A DNA stretch of 64,000 nt. Origin: Diplolepis rosae (Eukaryota > Arthropoda > Insecta > Hymenoptera > Diplolepididae). The position numbers were made by a program, and so were the translations under genes. The notes beneath the pieces are model-generated. The model ran no database searches and was not told the origin of the DNA. It was given only the letters and a program-made list of their open reading frames with translations. Numbering within the stretch: position 1 is the stretch's first letter; every line of letters begins with the position of its first letter. Shown in pieces: positions 1-60,546 of the stretch. The stretch is from NCBI GenBank assembly GCA_030998225.1, contig JAPYXD010000741.1:1674001-1738000 (forward strand), read 5' to 3'.

Positions 1-1
1 T

Positions 2-1312
2 TGGTGGAAGGAAAGAATTGCAATTTGTTTGGATACCTGATTTTGTTAATATATGAGTTCGTGGAGAAAGGAAAAAGGATTGATTTCCTCTAAATATTGG
101 TAGTTGTAGATAACATTCTTCAGTTTTGCGATATTTTACTTCAACCTGTATACATTTTACGATATGTACTACTTCTCCTGCAATTACTGACATATATCCT
201 GGGCCTTTCATTAAATGATATGCAAATTCGTCTGGTGATTGGGTTGCTAAGGTTAATGTATTTCTAAAAACTTGCTGTTCAAGTATGCATCGTTGAGTAA
301 GAACATCGTGATAAAGTCTATTTACTTCAGTGCGTATGTGTCGTTCTACATATATAAATTTAGAGTTGACGTATGTGAAAATGTCCATATTTTGAACTTC
401 TAAATGTTTATTTTCTAAAAATGAATTCCCAGGTCTGGTTTCAAAAATTAATAATTTTGGATGTTCAGTTTGTATTAAAACGTAACTGCAAACTGGTTTT
501 CTTGTTTTTTCAGCCAGTACAAAGGTTATATCTTCAGTCGTTAAAGAATACAAGGTTTCAGAAATGTCTGTCGTGTTGTCATATGTTTTATTTGCTGGTC
601 CTTCATAAATAATTTCATATTTGTTAAAATTACATACGTCATTAGGTAATGTATCCCAGAATGTTTGTCCATATTCTACGTCTGTACAGAATGTGTCTGA
701 AAGTGTGCATATTATTCCAGATCCTAATTGAATTTTATTTGAATTTAAATGAATAGTCGCGTAATGTTCTTGTAAAGTTATTTTGAATATTGCTTGGACT
801 ACGACATTATTCCATGTTCCATATGGGTCAGAAAATTGTGTACCAGTACAGTCTCCATTAGGTGTTACAGAACCTGCTAAAGTAACGCTATGAAATGAAG
901 TTTCATTTACTTTTAACTTTGATATCTGAAGAGAAGGGGTTACTAAAAATGTTCCTATTGTGTGCATTTGATTACATTGATCTCGTGTAACATCATGTAT
1001 ATATTCACTGTGGCCATTTGCAACTATGGAACTGTGAGAATGCATACCACAATGAGAGATGGCGCGTCGAATTTCTAGTTTGCATTGTATTACTTTTGTA
1101 TTTGAAAATCCAGTTAATTGTAAAAGTTGTATATAAACTCTTTCAACATGTACTTGAGATCGAGGTAGATCACATTCTCCTACCTCTAGTAAAGATAATG
1201 TCGTAATATTTGATTGATTTGAACCGCAATCGAATCCTATGATGGCGTAGACTGTTGTTATATAGTTGAATTTGCAAATGAGCAGTGCCAAAACGAAGCC
1301 TCGTAATCCCAT
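2..1312 (-). CDS. Envelope-like glycoprotein, N-terminal 437 codons (runs off left edge)
   Basis: An ATG at 1312-1310 opens a frame with no stop down to base 2, so the gene continues out of the window. The product begins with a short hydrophobic stretch (GFVLALLIC) that fits a signal peptide. An extracellular-looking region follows with many cysteines and several N-x-S/T sequons (for example SNITT and NKTYD). It is the third large gene after gag and pol, the place of env in retrovirus-like elements, where env is usually made from a spliced RNA. I see no R-x-K/R-R furin-like site in the stretches I translated, so it does not look like the baculovirus F-type env of Drosophila gypsy. The N-terminal Cys-Gly and NITT pattern recalls the chuvirus-type glycoproteins found in some insect retroelements, but that is from memory and weak. 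No transmembrane anchor is visible because the C-terminus is missing. Confidence 0.72.
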   Translation of the reverse strand, partial: MGLRGFVLALLICKFNYITTVYAIIGFDCGSNQSNITTLSLLEVGECDLPRSQVHVERVYIQLLQLTGFSNTKVIQCKLEIRRAISHCGMHSHSSIVANGHSEYIHDVTRDQCNQMHTIGTFLVTPSLQISKLKVNETSFHSVTLAGSVTPNGDCTGTQFSDPYGTWNNVVVQAIFKITLQEHYATIHLNSNKIQLGSGIICTLSDTFCTDVEYGQTFWDTLPNDVCNFNKYEIIYEGPANKTYDNTTDISETLYSLTTEDITFVLAEKTRKPVCSYVLIQTEHPKLLIFETRPGNSFLENKHLEVQNMDIFTYVNSKFIYVERHIRTEVNRLYHDVLTQRCILEQQVFRNTLTLATQSPDEFAYHLMKGPGYMSVIAGEVVHIVKCIQVEVKYRKTEECYLQLPIFRGNQSFFLSPRTHILTKSGIQTNCNSFLPP

Positions 1313-1457: not shown

Positions 1458-1739
1458 TTAGTCTATAATATCCAACATGTCAGCTATGACAATATGATCT
1501 GATAGGCGTAAACTGATAATCAAGTTTTTGTATGCGTCTGGTCCTCTTGTTTTGATTGTTGAAAAAATGTCTTTTATTGTATCTGGATTGTTTAGGTTTT
1601 TGCTCCATGTGGGAATATTACAGTCGTCTTGGTTAAAAATTCCAGTTTGAATTAAGTATGGCCAGAGAGCTACCATGTCGATAAAACAGGGAACTATTTC
1701 AATGAGATCATCTATGCGTTTGCGATGAATTTGATCCAT
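1458..1739 (-). CDS. Standalone CARD-domain protein (93 aa) between pol and env
   Basis: This intact ATG-to-stop ORF of 93 codons matches a caspase recruitment domain by eye over its whole length. It starts MDxxxR, has LWPYLIQTGIF (residues 25-35) where CARDs carry helix 2 and the following turn, and has IKTRGPDAY (62-70) where caspase-9-type CARDs carry the L-x-TRG motif between helices 4 and 5. It ends with an amphipathic IADML helix. The length equals one CARD, with no caspase, NACHT or other domain attached. CARDs pair with other CARDs to assemble or block caspase-activating complexes; a CARD-only protein could act as a dominant-negative inhibitor, but that is inference. It lies 212 bp downstream of the integrase stop and 145 bp upstream of the env start, on the same strand. 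It may be a captured host gene fragment such as an initiator caspase or Apaf-1-like CARD. It is intact although gag and pol are broken. Confidence 0.82.
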   Translation of the reverse strand: MDQIHRKRIDDLIEIVPCFIDMVALWPYLIQTGIFNQDDCNIPTWSKNLNNPDTIKDIFSTIKTRGPDAYKNLIISLRLSDHIVIADMLDIID

Positions 1740-1951
1740 TATATCTGGAATAACGTGTTATGTCTAAATTTGTTGTATATATTTTTTATATAAAATATAT
1801 ATTTTTTTATAAATTTTATATATGTATATTTTTTTTTCATTTTTACCATTTATCGACAAAATAAAATTTCTATATTTTGTTTAAACTGTATATGTATACA
1901 TATTTTTTATAATTAAAGTAAAGATATTTTGTTTGTTATTTTTTTATTTAT
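1740..1951 (-). other. AT-rich spacer between integrase and CARD ORF
   Basis: Very AT-rich sequence with T runs and TATATA stretches. It separates the integrase stop from the CARD start. An acceptor site for a spliced CARD or env transcript could lie here or at 1313-1457, but I cannot assign one with confidence. Confidence 0.5.
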
Positions 1952-3343
1952 CTACTTTTGTACTTGTACGTGTGAGCGTTTTAGTCTATTAATGTGAACT
2001 ACAGTAGGTTTGCCTTTATAGCTTATTTTGACATTCCCTTTTCCTAACACTTCCAATATTTCATAAGGCCCTGTATAATGGTTCTCTAGTTTTTTTATTT
2101 TACCTCCTTTTAATAAAAATACGTTGTCTCCAATTTTTACTTCTAAAGGATTTATTTTTTTATCATAATATATTTTCGATTTTACGAAATTAATTAAATA
2201 ATCATCATACGTTTGTAATTTTTCTTGTTGTGATAAAGGTTCGCTGGAAGGTTCACGAGCTAATTTACCAAAAACCAATTCATAGGGTGTGCATTTTGTG
2301 CCTTCATGTACACTAGTATTATACGAGAACATTGCTAGTTCAAGCCAATCATCCCATTCTGAATTTTTTGCAACAAATTGTTTGAGATATTCTCCTAAAA
2401 CATGATGTGAACGTTCTAATGATCCGTTTGATTGAGGATGAAAAGCTGTGGTACGAAATTGTTTAATTCTAAAACGTTTTGCCAATCTTTTTAATAAATT
2501 ACTTAAAAAATCTCTGCCTTGGTCAGTAAGTACTCCTTTTGGTGATCCAAATATGCAAATAAATTTTTTCACAAAAGCATCTGCTATTGTACTAGCTTGG
2601 TGATTAGGAAGAGGTATTGCTAAAGAATATTTGGTAAAATTGTCTTGTATCGTTAGAATATATAAGTTACCAGATTTTGTTTCAGGTAGTGGACCAACAA
2701 TGTCCATTGATATTTTTTCAAAAGCAGTAGTGGGTGTGTCTGTGATTACCATAGGATTTTTTGTTTTGACTCTGATTAATTTTTTCAGTTGACATTGTAA
2801 ACAGCCTTGAATATATTTTTGAATGTCTACTTTCATATTTTCCCAAAAAAATTTTTGGCGAATTCGACTATAAGTTTTTGTGACGCCTTTATGGCCTCCT
2901 AATGCTGAAGAATGAGCTTCTTCGATTAAATGAGTTCGTTGTTCTTTTGTTGGATATTGCGTTATTCCATTGCAAACTATAATTTTTGTAGTTGAATTTG
3001 AAAAAATTGAGTCAAAAATTGATTTCACTTCTTCCCAAAGTATATGATTAATTCTGGAAGTTTTAGAAATACTAATTGATCGTAACTTCAGATTTTGAGA
3101 TAATTCATGTAATGAGTATATTGATAATTTTATATTATTTAATGTTTCGGATAAATTATCTTTAGTTTCTTCTTCAATTGGAAGTGCAAAATGGTAGTAG
3201 TTTCCTTTTTTAATCTCTTTTGCTATCCCTTTTTGTAAATTTTCAAATTTTGGTAAAATTTCACGTTTTTCTAAAGTTTTTGATCCGTTGTCGCGAGGAG
3301 TTCCATTTGTTGTAACAAAATATGCATAATTATCTTTTCGCAT
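1952..3343 (-). pseudogene. pol: Integrase segment of pol (463 aa from first ATG)
   Basis: Ty3/gypsy integrase, which inserts the element cDNA into host DNA. The zinc-binding HHCC domain is visible (H144, H151, C181, C184). The catalytic DDE core is complete: D214 in SMDIVG, D274 in LTDQGRD and E310 in NGSLERS, with the usual 35-residue D-E gap. The C-terminal GPY/F module (YTGPYEI, about residue 423-429) follows and the frame ends at 1952. The ATG at 3343 is only the first Met. The frame is open upstream to 3472, encoding a proline-rich stretch, so this is the end of a pol polyprotein and not a separate gene. A frame change near 3465-3490 cuts it from the preceding linker. The integrase domain itself has no stop. 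Confidence 0.93.
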
Positions 3344-3464: not shown

Positions 3465-4094
3465 TTAACAATTTATTTGAGATCTTCGGTTTAATCTCAA
3501 ATTTTCTTCAAAATAAGGCTCTTCAAATTCTTCTTCCAATTTTTCTTCTTGGTTTTCTTCAAACTTCTCTTCAAAATTTTCCTCAAGATTGTCTTCAAAA
3601 TTTTCTTCAAAATTCTGTTCGAAATTCTTTTCGAAATTGTCTTCAAGATCATCTTCAAAATTATCTTCCAAATTTTCTTCATAATTTTCTCCATCATTTT
3701 CTTCGTGTGAGGTTTCAATGTCGTTGATTTCATCTTCTGAGGTTGAAAAATAATTCTCACTTTCTTCGCTTTCAAATTCATTAATATTTTTTCGCTTCTT
3801 GGCATTCTTCTTCATTTTGTTTTTTGCTTGAGCTTGTTTCAAATAATCTAAATAATCAGGATCAGAGTCGGAATCTGATTCTACTTGTGTTCGGTTTCCT
3901 TTTTGCATATTTATTTCTGGTAAATCATCTTCATATATTTGTTTTCTTGGTCTACCTCTCTTTCTTTTTGTTTGAGAGGGAATATTTTTCAAATTTGTAA
4001 GTAGATTCTTCCTTGGCCTACCTCGAGGTTTTTTCACAAGAGGTTTAGAAGAAAAATTTTCGTCTAATTTTTCTTGAGTTTCATTTCGATTCAT
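3465..4094 (-). pseudogene. AT-hook and acidic-repeat linker of pol (209 aa)
   Basis: This frame lies between RNase H and integrase and differs from both, so it is probably part of pol displaced by small indels. It has two AT-hook cores, RGRPRK, at residues 24-29 and 46-51, each in a basic context. A Ser/Asp-rich patch and a lysine-rich stretch follow. From about residue 135 to the end there is an acidic tract of repeated NFEE/NLEE-like units. AT-hooks bind the minor groove of AT-rich DNA in nuclear proteins such as HMGA. I know of no standard Ty3/gypsy domain of this kind at this place. It could guide integration to AT-rich chromatin (inference). The low-complexity acidic tract may be prone to indels, which would fit the frame breaks at both ends. 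Confidence 0.72.
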
Positions 4095-4104
4095 ATTTTT
4101 TGCT

Positions 4105-6123
4105 TTATCTTGCTCTATTCTCTTTTGAGCTCTTGTGGTAATAGTTTTTCATGATAAATTTTCGTATTTTTTTGGAAAACATTGGACTTAATAAACATAT
4201 TGTCATAAAAATAAGTCTTGAAGCCATATTTTTGAATAAATTTGTGTATTTTAAAATATTCTTACCAATCTCACTAAATGATTCTTCACTAAGGAATTCT
4301 TGTAAAAATTCTGGAATTTTTGTGTCAATATTTAATATTTGGGCTTCTGGAATTTCGCTAAAATGATCTACGTCGTCTGGTACCATTCCCGGATTCAAGT
4401 TTTTTCGTTTTAAAGGTCTTACCTTATTTTTAGAGTTTTCTTGTTTATTTCTTGTAAAAGTTTTCTTGGAAAACGTTTTTTCTTGAGAAGTCATGAAAGT
4501 ATCATTGTCATCAACTTGTAAATATTTTGATTTTTCCTGGCTATCATCAATAAGGTTTCTTGAGAGAGCATCTGCATTTACATTCATTTTTCCTGCTTTG
4601 TAAATTACATCAAAATCATATTCTGCGAGTTTTAATCTCCAACGTGAAACTCGTGAACAAGGGTCTTTAGAATTTTGAAACCAAACTAGAGGTTTGTGAT
4701 CAGTCACTAAAGTAAATTTTCTTCCGTACAAATAAGGACGAAAATGAGTTACACAAAATATTATAGCAAGAGCTTCTTTTTCATATGTATCATATTTTTT
4801 CTCAGTATCACTTAGACTACGTGAAGCATATGCTATTGGTTTATCTTTACCTATTTTACCTTGTGATAAAATACCTCCTATTGCAAATCCTGAGGCATCT
4901 GTTGTGAGTATAAAGGGTTGAGAAAAATCAGGTCGTTGTAAAAGTGGTTCTTCACATAACTTTACTTTTAAAATATCGAAAGCTGCTTGTTGTTTTTCTG
5001 TCCAATTAAAAGGTATATCTTTTTTTAGAAGTTGATTTAAAGGACTTGCAATTTTTGAAAATCCATCAATAAATCGTCTATAATATCCTGCTAAGCCTAA
5101 AAATTGTTTAACATTTTTCTGTGTTTTTGGGACTGGAAAGTTTTTTACAGCTATTATCTTTTTTGGATCTGGACGTACTCCATTTTTATCAATTATATGA
5201 CCTAAATATCCTACTTCAGGTCGTAAAAATTCGCATTTGTCTGGTTGTAAGTGAAGATTTGCTTTTCTAAGTCTTTCTGCTAAATTGTTGAATTTAATTT
5301 CGTGCTCTTCTAGAGTATTTGCATATATAACTATGTCATCAAGATATACAAAAAGTTCCGTTCCGATTAATCCAGTTAATGTTAAATCCATCAATCTTTG
5401 AAATGTGGCTGGTGCAGTTTTCAAACCGAAAGGCATTCTATCGAATTCGTAATGACCGTGAGGTGTGGAAAATGCGGTTTTATGTGAGTCTTTTGGATCC
5501 ATTTTTATATGGTGAAAACCGGTAGCTAAATCAAACACTGAAAAATATTTTGCTGACCCTAGAGAATCAAGTATATCGTTTATATTAGGTAGAGGATACG
5601 AATCGCCAATTGTTTTTTCATTTAATTTACGAAAATCAAGAACCATTCTCCATTTTATTTTTCCTTGGGAGTCAGGTTTTTTAGGAACTATCCACACTGG
5701 AGTGTTATATGGTGATTGTGAGGGCTTGATTATTTTATTTTTTAATAATTCATCGACTTGTCTTGTAATTTCTTTCTTGTGAACTGGGGGAAATCTATAT
5801 TGTCTTGAAAAAATTGGAGCGTCATCTACAGTAGGGATTGAATGTTGTAATACATTAGTAGCTTCAAGTGGTTCTCCTGGGATTTGAAATCTGTCTGCAT
5901 TATTTTTAATTAATTTTTCTACATGTTCATATTCATCTTGATTTAAGTGGTCTAATCGAAGAAGTTTTTTAATAGATTCTACTCTGTCTTCGTCTGTTAC
6001 ATTATAAAATTTACATAAGTCTATTAGAGAATTGTCAGTTTTTAAAAAGTTATTTAATATTTTACTTGATAAATCTTCGTTATTTGTTTGTTTGAAATTA
6101 ATTAAATTTTCAATTTGTTTATA
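4105..6123 (-). pseudogene. pol: Reverse transcriptase and RNase H segment of pol
   Basis: The minus-strand frame is open from 6123 to the stop at 4105. Counting from the GTG at 5697, RT shows the WRMVLDFRKLN block near residues 16-26, FDLATGFHHI at 55-64, the catalytic YLDD at 118-121, and QPDKCEFL in the palm. RNase H follows with D267 in TTDASG, the glutamate of YEKEAL (306-308), D333 in TDHKPL and D376 in NADALS, so all four catalytic positions are present. The RT frame has no ATG near its start because it continues from protease. An in-frame TGA at 6124-6126 and a frame change near 6310-6330 separate it from the protease segment. Past about residue 480 the reading drifts into an unrelated tail, consistent with a frame break before the AT-hook linker. 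Confidence 0.94.
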
Positions 6124-6308: not shown

Positions 6309-6836
6309 TTATATTAAATAAAATGTTGTCACTGTTCGAGCTGGAATAGTAAATGTATTGGTAGATTTAAAAGGGTAACAGTGGTTCTCAATTTCTAAGC
6401 ATTTTGAAGTATAGTTTATATTCACACTATTATCTTGAAAAAATTCTGATCCTAATACTCCATCTTCTTCTACTGGGACTTCATTGGGAATAATGTTAAA
6501 TATCGTTGGATAACCAAAAATGTTTATTTTTACCTGTCCTAACGTGTAAAGTGGTAAATCATTAATTCCTGTAAGTTTCAATACGTTTTGGCTATTTATG
6601 GGTACTTCAGGGTTGAGAACCTTTTGTTTAATTAAATTTCGAGCAGCACCAGTATCAATCATCATGTGTGTTGGATTTTTTAGACCTTCCGTTGATATTA
6701 TAATTGATGGAATTGAAGTGGACTTTGAAATATTTATTGTCGTTGTTGTATGATCGTTAGAAGTGGATGCCAGTGGTTCGCGATTTATGCTTTCCTCAGT
6801 GCACCCGTGCTGGGGAGAGCTTTGGAGTTTTTCTGA
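6309..6836 (-). pseudogene. pol: Aspartic protease segment of pol
   Basis: The frame opens after a TAA at 6839-6837, overlaps the end of gag by 52 bases and ends at 6309. Counting from the ATG at 6665, the retroviral aspartic protease motif is IDTGAARNLI (active-site D4, T5, G6), followed by a hydrophobic GVLGSEFF stretch near residue 70. The enzyme would act as a dimer to cut Gag and Gag-Pol. The frame is -1 relative to gag, the arrangement expected for ribosomal -1 frameshifting. The C-terminal end runs into a stop just where the RT frame takes over, so a small indel near 6310-6330 has broken the polyprotein. Confidence 0.88.
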
Positions 6837-8209
6837 TTAGCTGTTTGGGATTGGCTATTTGGTCGTATCTTGCAGTCTCGTACTAAATGACCGGGTTGTT
6901 TACAGTAATTGCAAATTATTTCAGTATAATTTGAATTTTGTTGAGTGTTATTATTTTGGAAAAATCTATTTTCATATGGTTTATTTCGATTTTGAAACTG
7001 TCCTGAGTTAAAGTTTTTATACTGTCCTGGATTCAATTGTCTATTAGTATTATTAACATTATTGTTATTATTGTAAACATTTCTAGGAAAATTATTATTA
7101 TTGTTGTATCTTTGTTGTAAAAAATTATTATTATTGTTTCTATAATTGTTATTTCTATTTTGTAAAAAATGATTGTTGTTATTATTAAAATTATAATTTT
7201 TATTTCTTAAAAAATTGTTATTTGGAAAATTATTGTAATTGTTTCTTGCAAAATTATTATTATTATTACCTCTTTCACCATTGAAATTAATATATCTTTG
7301 TTGGTTAGGATTCAACAAATTTTGTTGTTTATTCTTAAGAACTGCATCTTGAGCTTTACTTAAATGAAAACATTTTTCAGTTGTGTGACCTGATTTTTTA
7401 CAAATTAAACAAATAGTTTTATTTTCAAGTGCTACGTTGAATCGGGTGGTTTTATTACTTTTATTATTATTAATTGATTCTTCGGTTTTTAAATAATCCG
7501 TATTTCTATTTCTTCGCAGTGCAGAAGATGCAGCCAGTCTTCGTTCTATGTCTATTGTATCATTAACTACTTTCTTAAATGTGTCCTTTTCTTCTACACG
7601 AATTTCTAACTCAGGACGCAAACCTCGTATAAAACATTGAATTACATCTCTTTCTAAATTTTGTTTGAAAGCATTATCTACCTGACCGTCATTATTAAGT
7701 CTGTGAGCATCTTCTATTCTATCAGCAATTTCTTTAATTCTAGCAGCATAGGAAAGGACATTTTCTCTTTCCCACATAAATGTATTACCTAATTCTCCCT
7801 GCAATTGATATACGCTTTTCGCAGGGGCATATACTCTTTTCAATTTTTCTATTAATTCCTCTATTGTTGCATACGTTGACCCAAAAATACATTTTCGTGC
7901 CTCACCAGACAATTTACCTCTCAATAGACGTGCAAGATTTTCTTGGGCAGCAGGTGTCGGCAGCATTGCCTTTGCTTCCATGCAACCCTCAATAAAATGG
8001 GACAATGGGAGGTTACTTCCGTCGAACAAAGGGACCACCTCTAGCGCGTCGCGTAAGGATACCTGCTGGCTGTTAGGTATGGCTACGGCCATCTCTTCGT
8101 TGTTTACTATTACGGGATTATCCTGATTTATGACTTCTGTATCGCTTTTGTCGTCGTCGCTATCGTTGTTACTAATTAGAGAGTCGCGTGCCAATGAGTT
8201 TTTAAAATT
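6785..8209 (-). pseudogene. gag: Gag, capsid and nucleocapsid part
   Basis: Open frame from just after the TAA at 8212-8210 down to the stop at 6787-6785. The first residue usually reported (8194) is a TTG, so the frame is better read as a continuation of the upstream ORF. It contains a capsid-like helical region (VPLFDGS to about residue 220, counting from 8194). A nucleocapsid follows with two CCHC zinc knuckles, C262-x2-C-x4-H-x4-C275 and C428-x2-C-x4-H-x4-C441. The 120 residues between them are extremely rich in asparagine. Gag forms the particle and the knuckles bind the genomic RNA. The two knuckles are unusually far apart; expansion of the Asn-rich spacer through AAT/AAC repeats is a likely cause. 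Confidence 0.9.
6827..6833 (-). promoter_or_regulatory. Candidate -1 frameshift site (gag to pol)
   Basis: On the minus strand the gag codons AAA-AAC preceded by G give the heptamer G AAA AAC. It sits directly after the stop that opens the pol frame and 40 bases before the gag stop, exactly where a -1 slip is required. It is close to the classic A AAA AAC slippery site but not identical, so P-site re-pairing would be imperfect. No downstream pseudoknot was verified. Confidence 0.45.
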
Positions 8210-8656
8210 TTATTTCAAATTTCTATTTTCTATTGTTATTACCGTTGAGCTTAGCAAATTAGATCCGTCAAAATAAGATAACTCGTTCGTTAATGTTTGA
8301 TCTTGATTACTAGATCCTGTCACAATGCTCAAATCTGGATAGAAACTTGAATGAAATCCGCTAGTTTTACTAGAATTTTCACTTGATATGGTTTGATCAT
8401 TAATTAAAGTCTTGTCGAAACGTGAATCGTCTAGCTGAAGAGTGTTATCTAATTCTTGTTCAGCAAAAAAGGTGTTTGAAATATCCTTGTATTTATTATA
8501 ATCGACTAAATTTTCTTTGATTTTACCTGATCTTTTTAGTTTCAAGGAATCTATTTGATTCTGATCGACAATTTTTGCGAGTTGATTGTCTTGTTTTGCT
8601 TTACTACGCGTAATAACTTTTTGGGCGGATTCTACAGGGGTATTTGAATTTGACAT
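8210..8656 (-). pseudogene. gag: Gag N-terminal extension, ended by in-frame TAA
   Basis: A 148-codon ORF with an ATG at 8656, in the same frame as gag and separated from it by one TAA (8212-8210) and no other gap. It is polar, Ser/Asp/Gln-rich, with a basic TRSKAK stretch near residue 17. It has no recognised domain. Since both sides share a frame, the simplest view is a nonsense change in a longer Gag. A separate small upstream protein or stop-codon readthrough is less likely but cannot be excluded. Confidence 0.65.
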
Positions 8657-9695: not shown

Positions 9696-9713
9696 TTCCC
9701 GGCCGATGCACCA
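9696..9713 (-). other. Primer binding site, tRNA-Gly(GCC)
   Basis: The plus strand reads TTCCCGGCCGATGCACCA, identical to the 3' end of insect tRNA-Gly(GCC) including CCA. The minus-strand transcript is thus complementary to 18 nt of that tRNA, which would prime minus-strand DNA synthesis. It fixes the element's orientation and marks the inner edge of the 5' LTR. Confidence 0.9.
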
Positions 9714-9727
9714 GAAAAAAGGAAGTA

Positions 9728-10579
9728 TGTTACGTCACAAATACGTAAATACTTACTTTGATCGAAGATTCCTCGTTTTAAGTTAGGATCGAATGATCCT
9801 CGCTTAGGGATGAGGATAAGTCAATGAAAGACACAATGATTATGAATATAATACAAATTGAATTTATTTTACTGGTTAAAATTTCCGGATATACATTCGT
9901 TAAGACAATTCTTATATAATGTAGGCACAGGCTGGTTGGTACGTAGGTGAGAAAGAGACAAAGAATAAAGATAGAGAGAGAGAGAGGTTCGGTACCTTTA
10001 TGATTCGTAAGTTGTGTTGAGGTTTAATCCACACGGCGGTGAGTTGTAAGTACTGGATCCCCACAGGTGTATTCCAAGTGTGAGAGAGAGACGGAGTTAT
10101 AGGCCGCACAGGTATATTCCGTAAAGGGCGGCGATTCAAATTTACGACACTGTTCGAAGATCTTTACAAGATCTATTCAAGTCTACGATGACTTTTACGA
10201 CTCCCGAACTTGGATTTTAAATTGTCCCAATCGAATTTTATTAATCTCAAACTCAGAGATTTCCGAAGTTAAATTGAAATACCGCACTGGACTATTGTCG
10301 CGAGACCGGTTATAAATCCGAAGGAAAATTTAAGTGTCGAACTAGACGAAGAATTTACTGACTGCTTTCTCTTGGTATGGGCCTCTTTTATATTTTTCTA
10401 TACAAATTGACGGTCAGCAAAAATCGTGACGTAGTCATATCTTCTTAGAGGAGAAGGGGCCCTATACTGCTCCCTACTTCCCCTACTCCCTATTCCCCTT
10501 TATCGATTCTCTCATAGATTTCTAACTCAAACCAGCCTGTGTGTATTATATACATTCAAATACGTCGCGGGACGTGACA
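9728..10579 (-). repeat. 5' long terminal repeat (852 bp)
   Basis: On the minus strand the LTR begins TGTCACGTC at 10579 and ends GACGTAACA at 9728, a short imperfect inverted repeat with the usual TG...CA ends. The outer boundary is sharp because sequence to its right is homologous to env. The inner boundary lies 14 bp from the PBS, a longer gap than usual. The LTR contains a GA-rich run near 9975-9987. ORFs inside it (for example 9912-10139) have no coding character. The partner LTR is outside the window, so the two cannot be compared for age. Confidence 0.8.
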
Positions 10580-10637
10580 TTATATACGTCATTAAGTAAT
10601 GTATCCCAGAATGTTTGTCCATATTCTACGTCTGTAC
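10580..10637 (-). pseudogene. 58-bp fragment of a second env copy
   Basis: Bases 10580-10637 match 630-687 of the envelope ORF at 56 of 58 positions, in the same orientation. The match stops exactly at the LTR edge on one side and at a hAT-like terminus on the other. It is a remnant of an older related element into which both others inserted. It is too short to code. Confidence 0.85.
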
Positions 10638-52333: not shown

Positions 52334-54229
52334 CTACTGGCCCTCCCCGTTGTTTCGCTCCCGACGCCCATCAAGCTCCCTCGTCTTCATCACAAGTGTG
52401 ACGAATGACTCGATGAGCGTCCAGAACCGCTCAGACTGGAGCATGAGGGGGACCATCGTGTCAGGAGTAAGTTCGGAACCCACCGCCTGACCGAGGACCC
52501 CCCTAGCCACACCCCATTTTGCGCAGACGAAGAGTGCGTGCTCTGCGTTATCCACCGGGGAATCGCAGTAGCAACACGTCTCCTCGTCTCTCTTCTTAAA
52601 GCGCCTCAGGTACGCGTTAAAACAGCCATGGCCCGAGAGCGCTTGTGCCAAGTAAAAGCCGACTTCCCCGTGCTTTCTGTTCAGCCAGGTGGCGAGCTCC
52701 GAGATCAGGCGGTAGGTCCATCTCCCTGTCTGCTCACCATGCCATCTCATCTGCCATTTCTCGACGAGTCTGCGCCTTCCATCCTTGCGGATGGCCTCCT
52801 TCGCGCGAGCGATTTTCTGCAGGTCGGCGCAGGTAAGCTCCTTGCGAAGCTGAAAGGTTTCCTGCCTTTCCTCCGCCAATAAATCTATTGGCGGGACGCT
52901 CGCCAGGACCAGCACAGCGCTCGTCGAGATAGTTCTATATGCCGAAACTATTCTCAGCGCGACAAGTCTCTGCGCCGAGAACAGCTTCTTCTGAATAGCA
53001 TGGTTTTGCAAGGCATTGGCCCAGACCGGAGCTGCATAAAGCAGCTTCGAATGGACCACGCTCGCCACCAATCTTCTTTTCGCTTCCCTGGGTCCACCAA
53101 TGTTTGACATAAGCCGGGCCAAGTTTGCTCCACATTGGATGGCTTTGGCGGCTGCGATCTTTAGGTGTTCGCCAAAGCTAAGCCTACGATCCAGCTGCAC
53201 CCCCAGGTACTTAATGCTTGTTTTCCACTCGACTTCATGCTCTCCGAGAACGATCCTCGGGTATTGGAAGGATCTCCTGTCCGTAACGAGCAAAGCCTCG
53301 GTTTTCTCAGGGGCCAATTTAAGACCTCTGCCATCCAACCAGCGCTTCGCTCGCCACAGACTTTCATTGATCCTCAGCTCTAGGATTCCGACGTCGTCAG
53401 CGGCGCACACGACAAGTGCGTCATCCGCGAAGCCGACGATGCTCGTTCCAGCAGGCAGGTCCATGCGCAGGAAATCGTCGTACATGACGTTCCAAACGAG
53501 TGGACCCACCCGCGACCCTTGAGGGGCGCCACATGTCATCTCCTCCTTGAGAGACCATTTGTCGCCCTCATATATCACCCACCTGTCGCTCAGATAGTCA
53601 TCTATCATTCGCAACAGGTAGTCTGGAACCTTTTTCCGCACCATCGCCTCGATGCAGATGTTCCATCTCGCGGTATTGAACGCATTGCGTATGTCAATGC
53701 TAATCAACGCACAGAATCCCTTACGCTTACCAGTTCCTTTTCTTGCATTTGTGGCGATGTTAACCACAGCTTGGATGGCGTCCACCGTGGACCTGCCTTT
53801 CCTGAATCCGAACTGGTTTTCCGAGAGCCCGTTCTCCCTGACCAAGAGAGCCTGAAGCCGTTGTAGAATCAACTCCTCCAGAAGCTTCCCCATCGTATCC
53901 AATAGGCATATTGGTCTATACGACGAGGCGACCCCTAGAGGTTTGTTGCCCTTCCTCAGCAGGACCAACCTCTGCTTCTTCCAATCTGCGAAGAACCTCC
54001 CCTCCCGAAGACAGGAGTTAAAGGCTTCTAGGAGGATCTCTGGGTACGCCCCGATCACCTCTTTGAGGATCTCGTTCGGCACCCCGTCGATACCTGGCGC
54101 TGTATTTGCCTTAAGCCTTCCACCCGCTCTCTTTAGTTCTTCGAGAGTGAAGAGTTCTTCGCGCCGGACCACGCAGGAACTTCGGTCCTGTCTTTGGAAC
54201 GGCTCCACGTGTGGAAACAAGCTACACAC
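52334..54229 (-). pseudogene. ORF2 reverse transcriptase and C-terminal zinc knuckle, copy A
   Basis: A 631-codon frame, counted from its first Met. RT blocks are clear: GIDGVPNEIL (46-55), YRPICLL (104-110), NQFGFRKGRST (138-148), IDIRNAFNTARW with catalytic D179, APQGSRVGPLVWN (235-247) and the catalytic FADD (267-270). Near the C-terminus, CYCDSPVDNAEHALFVC is the C-x2-C-x7-H-x4-C knuckle of R1-type ORF2 proteins. There is no RNase H. This protein would carry out target-primed reverse transcription at the site cut by the endonuclease. The natural stop seems preserved here, unlike copy B. Upstream, an extra base near 54270 puts the linker in another frame. Confidence 0.92.
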
Positions 54230-54861: not shown

Positions 54862-55461
54862 TCAATTTCCTCGTCTGAACGTAAATTCCCCGCCCTGATT
54901 CAAGACGGTCAGTTCGTTCCTAGCGACCATCTCGCCAACCAAGATTCCCCTCCTATCTAGGCGGGCTTCACCCCACTCGGGCGACTTACTGTTGAAGTCC
55001 CCCCCTATGAGGGATCGCCCGATGGCCTCACGGAGGCTTTCCTCAAGGAGGAGGATCTGGGTCTCAAAGACATCGAAGGGATCGCCGGGGGAGAAGTAGC
55101 AGCTGTACACACGCACACCCGCCACCTCCACCCAGACGAACCCCGCGTCGGTCTCCAGGAAGTCCCCGACGCCCAAATCAGGGTTACAAACAAGGATGCC
55201 GGCCCTCCTTGATGCATCCTGATACCAAGCAGAGTTATCGGACCACTTGTACTGCTCACTAATGAGCAGCACCTCAGCCCTCCTCTCCCTGGCAGTCTGC
55301 ATCAGGAGGTCCTGGGCATCCTTCCCCCTTCCGAGGTTGAGTTGCAGGAACTTCAATTCCTGCCTCTCAACCTCCGAAGCTCTTCCCGGAAGACCGGGCA
55401 GGAGCCGCTCCCCGACACATGGGCGACATCTTTTTCGCCCCTGTCTGCACATGACAGGCAC
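54862..55461 (-). pseudogene. ORF2 APE-type endonuclease, N-terminal part, copy A
   Basis: The endonuclease opens with LKFLQLNLGRG (Asn42), has ISEQY with Glu69, and IGGDFNSKSPEWG with Asp155 and Asn157, the catalytic blocks of APE-like nucleases in non-LTR elements. Its frame ends at FRRGN because copy A lacks 12 bases present in copy B here. The remaining SDH block is in the next ORF. Its start overlaps ORF1 by about 110 bases in another frame, typical of the R1 clade. The exact start codon is uncertain. Confidence 0.88.
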
Positions 55462-57464: not shown

Positions 57465-59420
57465 TCACAAGTGTGACGAATGACTCGATGAGCGTCCAGA
57501 AGCGCTCAGACTGGAGCATGAGGGGGACCATCGTGTCAGGAGTAAGTTCGGAACCCACCGCCTGACCGAGGACCCCCTAGCCACACCCCATTTTGCGCAG
57601 ACGAAGAGTGCGTGCTCTGCGTTATCCACCGGGGAATCGCAGTAGCAACACGTCTCCTCGTCTCTCTTCTTAAAGCGCCTCAGGTACGCGTTAAAACAGC
57701 CATGGCCCGAGAGCGCTTGTGCCAAGTAAAAGCCGACTTCCCCGTGCTTTCTGTTCAGCCAGGTGGCGAGCTCCGAGATCAGGCGGTAGGTCCATCTCCC
57801 TGTCTGCTCACCATGCCATTTCGTCTGCCATTTCTCGACGAGTCTGCGCCTTCCATCCTTGCGGATGGCCTCCTTCGCGCGAGCGATTTTCTGCAGGTCG
57901 GCGCAGGTAAGCTCCTTGCGAAGCTGAAAGGTTTCCTGCCTTTCCTCCGCCAATAAATCTATTGGCGGGACGCTCGCCAGGACCAGCACAGCGCTCGTCG
58001 AGATAGTTCTATATGCCGAAACTATTCTCAGCGCGACAAGTCTCTGCGCCGAGAACAGCTTCTTCTGAATAGCATGGTTTTGCAAGGCATTGGCCCAGAC
58101 CGGAGCTGCATAAAGCAGCTTCGAATGGACCACGCTCGCCACCAATCTTCTTTTCGCTTCCCTGGGTCCACCAATGTTTGACATAAGCCGGGCCAAGTTT
58201 GCTCCACATTGGATGGCTTTGGCGGCTGCGATCTTTAGGTGTTCGCCAAAGCTAAGCCTACGATCCAGCTGCACCCCCAGGTACTTAATGCTTGTTTTCC
58301 ACTCGACTTCATGCTCTCCGAGAACGATCCTCGGGTATTGGAAGGATCTCCTGTCCGTAACGAGCAAAGCCTCGGTTTTCTCAGGGGCCAATTTAAGACC
58401 TCTGCCATCCAACCAGCGCTTCGCTCGCCACAGACTTTCATTGATCCTCAGCTCTAGGATTCCGACGTCGTCAGCGGCGCACACGACAAGTGCGTCATCC
58501 GCGAAGCCGACGATGCTCGTTCCAGCAGGCAGGTCCATGCGCAGGAAATCGTCGTACATGACGTTCCAAACGAGTGGACCCACCCGCGACCCTTGAGGGG
58601 CGCCACATGTCATCTCCTCCTTGAGAGACCATTTGTCGCCCTCATATATCACCCACCTGTCGCTCAGATAGTCATCTATCATTCGCAACAGGTAGTCTGG
58701 AACCTTTTTCCGCACCATCGCCTCGATGCAGATGTTCCATCTCGCGGTATTGAACGCATTGCGTATGTCAATGCTAATCAACGCACAGAATCCCTTACGC
58801 TTACCAGTTCCTTTTCTTGCATTTGTGGCGATGTTAACCACAGCTTGGATGGCGTCCACCGTGGACCTGCCTTTCCTGAATCCGAACTGGTTTTCCGAGA
58901 GCCCGTTCTCCCTGACCAAGAGAGCCTGAAGCCGTTGTAGAATCAACTCCTCCAGAAGCTTCCCCATCGTATCCAATAGGCATATTGGTCTATACGACGA
59001 GGCGACCCCTAGAGGTTTGTTGCCCTTCCTCAGCAGGACCAACCTCTGCTTCTTCCAATCTGCGAAGAACCTCCCCTCCCGAAGACAGGAGTTAAAGGCT
59101 TCTAGGAGGATCTCTGGGTACGCCCCGATCACCTCTTTGAGGATCTCGTTCGGCACCCCGTCGATACCTGGCGCTGTATTTGCCTTAAGCCTTCCACCCG
59201 CTCTCTTTAGTTCTTCGAGAGTGAAGAGTTCTTCGCGCCGGACCACGCAGGAACTTCGGTCCTGTCTTTGGAACGGCTCCACGTGTGGAAACAAGCTACA
59301 CACAATGTACTGGACTCGATCGGGATTATCCAGGCCCGGGGTCTTTCTTCTAGCCACCAATCTCTTGGTGACTATTTTGAAGGCGAGACCCCATGGGTCC
59401 TTCTCGACCTCACCGATCAA
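57465..59420 (-). pseudogene. ORF2 reverse transcriptase, copy B
   Basis: A 651-codon frame with the same RT blocks as copy A (APQGSRVGPLVWN, FADD). It extends about 40 residues further upstream because the linker-RT junction is in frame here (RRKTPGLDNPDRVQY). After the zinc knuckle (CYCDSPVDNAEHALFVC) one C is missing from a C run near 57574, so the last ~50 residues are replaced and the frame ends at 57465. A and B thus differ in which part is intact. Confidence 0.92.
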
Positions 59421-59935: not shown

Positions 59936-60546
59936 TCAATTATTGACCCCCGCTCCTCGTCTGAACGTAAATTCCCCGCCCTGATTCAAGACGGTCAGTT
60001 CGTTCCTAGCGACCATCTCGCCAACCAAGATTCCCCTCCTATCTAGGCGGGCTTCACCCCACTCGGGCGACTTACTGTTGAAGTCCCCCCCTATGAGGGA
60101 TCGCCCGATGGCCTCACGGAGGCTTTCCTCAAGGAGGAGGATCTGGGTCTCAAAGACATCGAAGGGATCGCCGGGGGAGAAGTAGCAGCTGTACACACGC
60201 ACACCCGCCACCTCCACCCAGACGAACCCCGCGTCGGTCTCCAGGAAGTCCCCGACGCCCAAATCAGGGTTACAAACAAGGATGCCGGCCCTCCTTGATG
60301 CATCCTGATACCAAGCAGAGTTATCGGACCACTTGTACTGCTCACTAATGAGCAGCACCTCAGCCCCCTCTCCCTGGCAGTCTGCATCAGGAGGTCCTGG
60401 GCATCCTTCCCCCTTCCGAGGTTGAGTTGCAGGAACTTCAATTCCTGCCTCTCAACCTCCGAAGCTCTTCCCGGAAGACCGGGCAGGAGCCGCTCCCCGA
60501 CACATGGGCGACATCTTTTTCGCCCCTGTCTGCACATGACAGGCAC
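59936..60546 (-). pseudogene. ORF2 APE-type endonuclease, copy B, in two frames
   Basis: The first part (from 60546) carries LKFLQLNLGRG. A base missing near 60365 relative to copy A moves the rest, including ISEQY and IGGDFNSKSPEWG, into the frame that ends at 59936. There the frame runs FRRGAG and then stops, because a G run appears one base too long. The 12 bases deleted in copy A are present here. Confidence 0.87.

Follow-up and report, generated by a model that had tools for sequence, protein, structure and literature searches.

Can an insect retrovirus-like element carry a caspase-type CARD as a gene of its own and, if so, where did that gene come from and what might it do? The question is raised by a 64,000-nucleotide stretch of the Diplolepis rosae genome (contig JAPYXD010000741.1, positions 1,674,001 to 1,738,000 of the forward strand; hereafter the window), for which a preliminary description had reported a full-length 93-amino-acid (aa) CARD between the integrase and env genes of such an element. 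The open reading frame (ORF) at 1458..1739 (minus strand, stop codon included) was found intact from ATG to stop, flanked on the same strand by an integrase region with rve and H2C2 domains (1952–3343) and by an env gene with a Monjiviricetes_fusion domain (from 1312 past the window start). Here, sequence comparisons show this ORF to be one of the accessory genes of an env-carrying long terminal repeat (LTR) element of Ty3/gypsy type and 17.6 kb, and family profiles together with a structure model show its product to be a stand-alone CARD of the type found in initiator-caspase prodomains.

Identity and type of the CARD

Taken singly, the window CARD protein matched Pfam CARD (PF00619) with an E-value (E) of 0.001 and 19.5 bits, below the gathering score of 23.9, and PDB sequence searches with the single protein or with a shallow 29-sequence alignment returned no significant CARD match. 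With divergent relatives added, 34 of the 39 aligned members matched Pfam CARD (at E up to 1; best E 4.8e-07), and protein P0029 cleared the cut-off at 25.5 bits. The structure model computed from the 39 sequences reached a predicted local distance difference test score (pLDDT) of 93.1 and a predicted template modelling score (pTM) of 0.84, and its six helices form the death-fold bundle that characterises the CARD family; an earlier model from 29 close sequences had reached a pLDDT of only 60.6. The profile search and structure prediction that the preliminary description had proposed as checks on its CARD identification therefore both returned a CARD. No catalytic caspase domain follows: the ORF stops after the CARD and the first env gene (env1) comes next, so the element protein is not a caspase.

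A profile of element CARDs (alignment A5), compared with all PDB sequences, matched CED-3 (E 4.2e-5), caspase-9 (from 4.0e-4) and Dronc (6.7e-4), followed by an unrelated xylanase (0.013), NLRC4 (0.081) and RAIDD (0.31); Apaf-1 and CED-4 were missing from these matches up to E 1. Direct profile comparison gave 23.3 bits for caspase-9 and 22.8 for Dronc, as against 11.0 for the host CARD gene L049, 6.6 for host Dark and 5.2 for Apaf-1. Aligned locally with Dronc (BLOSUM62), the window CARD scored 47, which was attained by 4 of 2000 shuffled sequences (mean 24.7, standard deviation 4.6); its observed scores against caspase-9 and Apaf-1 were attained by 79 and 1664 of 2000 shuffles, respectively. 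Because of the PDB matches, the bit scores and the Dronc shuffle test, the element CARD is assigned by sequence to the initiator-caspase type, on the strength of the family profile more than of the single protein. The caspase-9/Apaf-1-type pattern noted in the preliminary description thus survived on its caspase side (CED-3, caspase-9, Dronc) and was lost on its Apaf-1/Dark side.

Copies, subfamilies and selection

The CARD protein was searched against its own genome (757.7 Mb), and 150 of the 1166 candidates were scored. All 150 places matched; 63 rows, the window copy included, were identical over 93 residues, 9 rows carried one in-frame stop and 141 carried none. Integrase, CARD and env were all present in 29 of the 30 best loci, the remaining one (L021) being without integrase in its 1.5-kb flank. 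The genome yielded 61 CARD matches (best 29.9 bits), of which 37 were above the Pfam cut-off, host gene L049 among them; 4 of these 37 passed only together with their in-frame neighbours. Fifty of the 61 were examined as loci L044–L093, and the element-CARD profile matched 48 of them, including two host genes (L049, weakly, and L062), leaving L057 and L060 unmatched. In 8 of 10 CARD-family loci (L044–L048, L050–L052) the CARD was 46–58% identical to that of the window and the gene order was kept, with integrases 68–84% and env pieces 55–84% identical to those of the window; at L053 a CARD was present with no integrase or env in the flank, and L049 is the host gene. The status of accessory gene is upheld by this recurrence in many copies and several subfamilies.

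Ratios of nonsynonymous to synonymous substitution rates (dN/dS, Nei-Gojobori) were calculated for 11 representatives (55 pairs, 10 with dS below 0.5 and the other 45 at or near saturation). Eight of the ten usable pairs gave 0.19, 0.20, 0.24, 0.25, 0.19, 0.28, 0.13 and 0.26, and the other two 0.55 and 0.59, at dS 0.12 and 0.04. Judged by these pairwise ratios, purifying selection maintained the CARD as the element, which is young, many-copy and retrovirus-like, diverged into subfamilies.

A host relative and the origin of the gene

Annotated relatives of the element CARD occur in the cynipid Belonocnema kinseyi, namely P0086 (LOC117174601) and P0092 and P0093 (LOC117169146). In D. rosae, a host gene on contig C395 (L062 2303–2697) has two exons separated by an 89-bp gt-ag intron, predicted from the sequence, and ends after its CARD; it is identical to P0086 at 77 of 100 positions and to the window CARD at 49 of 93. 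Caspase matches were found in the genome on C95, C352, C408 and C313, and none on the contig of this CARD-only gene. A maximum-likelihood tree built from 38 sequences groups the C395 gene with P0086 and P0100 (support 100) and places this clade beside the L051 subfamily of the element (support 63). Dronc, Dark and L049 lie on long, poorly supported branches, Dark and L049 inside an element subfamily, so the CARD tree cannot root the family.

The simpler reading of these data is that the element probably captured a CARD gene from its wasp host lineage in the form of a spliced mRNA. The reverse direction, in which domestication of an element CARD, with the gain of an intron, gave rise to the host gene on C395 and to its counterpart in B. 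kinseyi, and the element gene has an older source, would agree with the position of the host clade among element subfamilies and with three protein searches in which no clear named relative outside Cynipidae was among the matches listed (in the last search, the best 120 of 141). We consider it somewhat unlikely, given that the host gene has an intron and the element copies have none, that no LTR and no other tested element protein, pol and env included, was matched in 23 kb around the C395 gene (three pieces), and that the base of the tree is weak (supports 26–64). The host capture suggested in the preliminary description gains support from the intron-bearing host relative, with the direction unproven; the phylogeny with Dronc and Dark that it had proposed supplied the clade beside L051 but no root. 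The host gene with an intron and the element gene without one make a traceable pair for the study of gene capture.

Architecture of the element

The 5′ LTR (852 bp; 9728..10579, minus strand) and its partner outside the window (L033 474–1325, C413:1666974–1667825) are 99.4% identical (5 mismatches in 852), end in TG..CA and are bordered by a 4-bp TTAT target duplication, and the element is therefore delimited as 17,606 bp (C413:1666974–1684579). The Ty3/gypsy-type assignment is based on the LTRs, the target duplication and the order of the pol domains (reverse transcriptase, RNase H, integrase), as in Ty3/gypsy elements (Metaviridae). A sequence that is probably the primer-binding site (9701..9713, minus strand; TGGTGCATCGGCC in element orientation), which we assign to tRNA-Gly, and a stretch that we take from its sequence to be a polypurine tract both lie where expected. 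Beyond the 5′ LTR, 10580..10637 (minus strand) begins an env1 fragment of another copy, 97% identical to window positions 629–687, with the other side of the insertion site in L033 1–472; by these junction sequences, the window copy is inserted in the env1 of another copy. L034 958–1966 holds one more LTR, connected to a fragment of env1 and to a truncated integrase, and an additional CARD copy lies about 12 kb to the left of the window's CARD (C413:1662878–1663153); both are read as parts of nested or rearranged copies.

All genes of the element within the window are on the minus strand. The coding order begins with ORF0 (148 aa; 8210..8656), which matched no family above cut-off, a gag-like ORF with a CCHC zinc knuckle (6785..8194; zf-CCHC E 2.1e-4, above cut-off) and a protease-like ORF taken from the ORF list (6309..6665), whose DTGA motif we take to be that of the protease. 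Reverse transcriptase and RNase H (4105..5697; RVT_1 E 5.3e-36, RT_RNaseH E 5.3e-39) are followed, in a different frame, by an ORF from the same list (3465..4094) that is acidic, of low complexity and marked by 12-base tandem repeats; its Pfam match to AT_hook was no better than E 0.64. The integrase region of pol (1952..3343; rve E 3e-13, Integrase_H2C2 E 3.2e-21), which is without a short stretch found in copy L001, then precedes the CARD and env1. The first 437 codons of env1 occupy 1..1312 and the rest lies left of the window (L031 2498–1782; Monjiviricetes_fusion E 5.1e-168 and 1.9e-68, respectively), its chuvirus-type nature being read solely from this Pfam family.

A splice-acceptor-like stretch of pyrimidines and CAG lies just upstream of the CARD ATG (1740..1760, minus strand), its function being inferred from the frequency of YAG (Y, pyrimidine). 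YAG occurred at most 15 nt upstream of the ATG in 59 of 66 CARD ORFs, 30 near-identical copies included, vs 293 of 1076 background ATGs, and in 21 of 26 when each distinct upstream sequence is counted once; the start of env1 directly follows CCTCCTTTTTCCAG. Errantivirus env is expressed from a spliced subgenomic RNA, and the upstream YAG enrichment fits spliced subgenomic RNAs here.

Elsewhere in the window, two near-identical ORFs (52334–53893 and 57465–58967) read in translation as reverse transcriptases resembling those of long interspersed nuclear elements, and are accompanied by endonuclease-like ORFs (54862–55452 and 60091–60537).

Further accessory genes left of the window

The element extends about 7 kb past the window start, where it holds more accessory ORFs. 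A 194-aa ORF (L031 421–1005) matched the double-stranded RNA-binding domain (dsRBD) family dsrm (PF00035) at E 0.0014, below cut-off, and a 154-aa ORF (L033 1793–2257) at E 3.7e-6. In copy L036, a 243-aa ORF between env1 and the 194-aa ORF (L036 2191–2922) has two dsrm stretches (E 2.4e-12); it matched all 150 scored places (of 1500 candidates) at 84–100% identity, with in-frame stops in 16 rows, and the window copy has no ORF of at least 60 aa at its place. A second env of the baculovirus-F type (L032 1172–2500, continuing into L031) matched Baculo_F at E 1.3e-15 for the L032 part, and neither of two Cys-rich ORFs (L032 335–742, 135 aa; L039 3258–3557, 99 aa) matched a family above cut-off. 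The part left of the window aligned at 96–99.6% with 3 of 3 other copies, L039 being without about 0.4 kb that is present in L033.

Downstream of env1 in the divergent subfamilies L106 and L107, dsrm was matched at E 6.6e-4, 6.4e-3 and 3.3e-6 and, in a further ORF for which another family scored better, at 0.066; Baculo_F was matched at 6.8e-5 and 0.02, both below cut-off. One of these six matches clears its Pfam cut-off. By tblastn to L107, the 243-aa protein was 34% and the 194-aa protein 52% identical. Besides the CARD gene, the element thus has accessory genes of another kind in these dsRBD ORFs, which are candidate suppressors of RNA interference (RNAi).

Possible function and alternatives

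The reading that we favour, though we hold it evenly balanced between true and false, is that a host-captured CARD is kept under selection as a decoy of the Dronc prodomain on Dark, the host Apaf-1 homologue, beside dsRBD proteins directed against RNAi. The element CARD would mimic the Dronc prodomain and dock on the CARD of Dark, and Dronc would thereby be kept off the apoptosome, such that element-expressing or infected cells might survive long enough for particle formation and spread; the dsRBD proteins, whose genes lie downstream of env, would act alongside it against RNAi. Several observations weigh against this. The basic residues R13, R52 and R56 of caspase-9, which we take to be its Apaf-1 contacts, are mostly not conserved in the element CARD, so it may bind a protein other than Dark. 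A CARD-only gene with no caspase found nearby is the closest host relative, and the element CARD may mimic its product instead; a search of the 3 kb upstream of the C95 caspase did not turn up a host Dronc CARD exon, and we infer both Dark binding and caspase inhibition from sequence.

The same loss of interface residues, the CARD-only nature of the nearest host relative and the presence of further host CARD genes (L049, L057) would agree with action on another partner, such as the C395 protein, L049 or a similar protein, or the element's own proteins as an assembly scaffold; we regard this as rather unlikely, as the profile ties the CARD to apical caspases above L049 or Dark. Alternatively, the CARD could promote death signalling as a CARD-only nucleator that clusters and switches on Dronc, to give sublethal caspase activity or release and spread via dying cells. 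The solved structures that resemble the model include assemblies of caspase CARDs, such as the filament of caspase-1, and a caspase-type CARD could also self-associate, but a vertically inherited element pays a cost for killing its carrier cell, and we judge this improbable. A chance ORF, or a host fragment at one locus, has in its favour only the below-cut-off single-sequence Pfam score and was rejected as next to impossible, given the matches at every scored place, mostly free of stops, the same position in divergent subfamilies, the low dN/dS and the confident fold.

More broadly, it is a little short of an even call that this element represents an unusually large insect retrovirus-like lineage with a counter-defence cassette, comprising an initiator-caspase CARD decoy aimed at the apoptosome, several dsRBD proteins against RNAi and a pair of unrelated fusion proteins, one Monjiviricetes-type and one baculovirus-F-type, all acquired from the host and other viruses and maintained by selection. 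The CARD beside dsRBD genes and two envs suggests a retroelement that may restrain RNA silencing as well as the death of host cells. Should the decoy reading be true, insect endogenous retroviruses would face apoptosis as a selective barrier besides small-RNA silencing, Dronc-Dark signalling could be probed with a natural and genetically defined element, and a retroelement would be seen to collect genes from host and viruses in the manner of large DNA viruses.

Comparison with known systems

No CARD in an LTR element or retrovirus was described among the literature matches listed, as judged by titles and the starts of abstracts, in the literature outside subscription papers and repeat databases; a word search of PMC12992720 and PMC13172572 found none of 'accessory', 'additional ORF' and 'caspase'. 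The best sequence and fold relatives are the prodomains of Dronc, caspase-9 and CED-3, from which the element CARD differs in having no caspase domain after it. ICEBERG, a vertebrate CARD-only regulator, acts on caspase-1 in mammals; no sequence link of the element CARD to vertebrate regulators of this type was shown.

Small virus-encoded CARDs of similar length are known from iridoviruses (ranavirus vCARD, lymphocystis disease virus, cod iridovirus), which are large DNA viruses of vertebrates, unlike a retroelement, and ranavirus vCARD is described as a putative evasion protein (PMC3407895). The iridovirus CARDs matched the model in fold (probability 0.99 and 0.97), but because identity was 12% and Foldseek E was 0.36 and 0.5, no common origin with them is shown.

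Gypsy fragments beside chuvirus glycoproteins in Hymenoptera, and the BEL-Pao element Anakin in mosquitoes, likewise combine an LTR element with a glycoprotein from this group of viruses (PMC10084718, PMC7642597); the parts of these papers that were consulted do not mention a CARD, dsRBD or second env, in contrast to the 17.6-kb D. rosae element. With the errantiviruses, the insect Ty3/gypsy elements with a baculovirus-F env, this element shares reverse transcriptase, integrase, LTRs and a Baculo_F env, to which it adds an unrelated Monjiviricetes-fusion env together with CARD and dsRBD ORFs.
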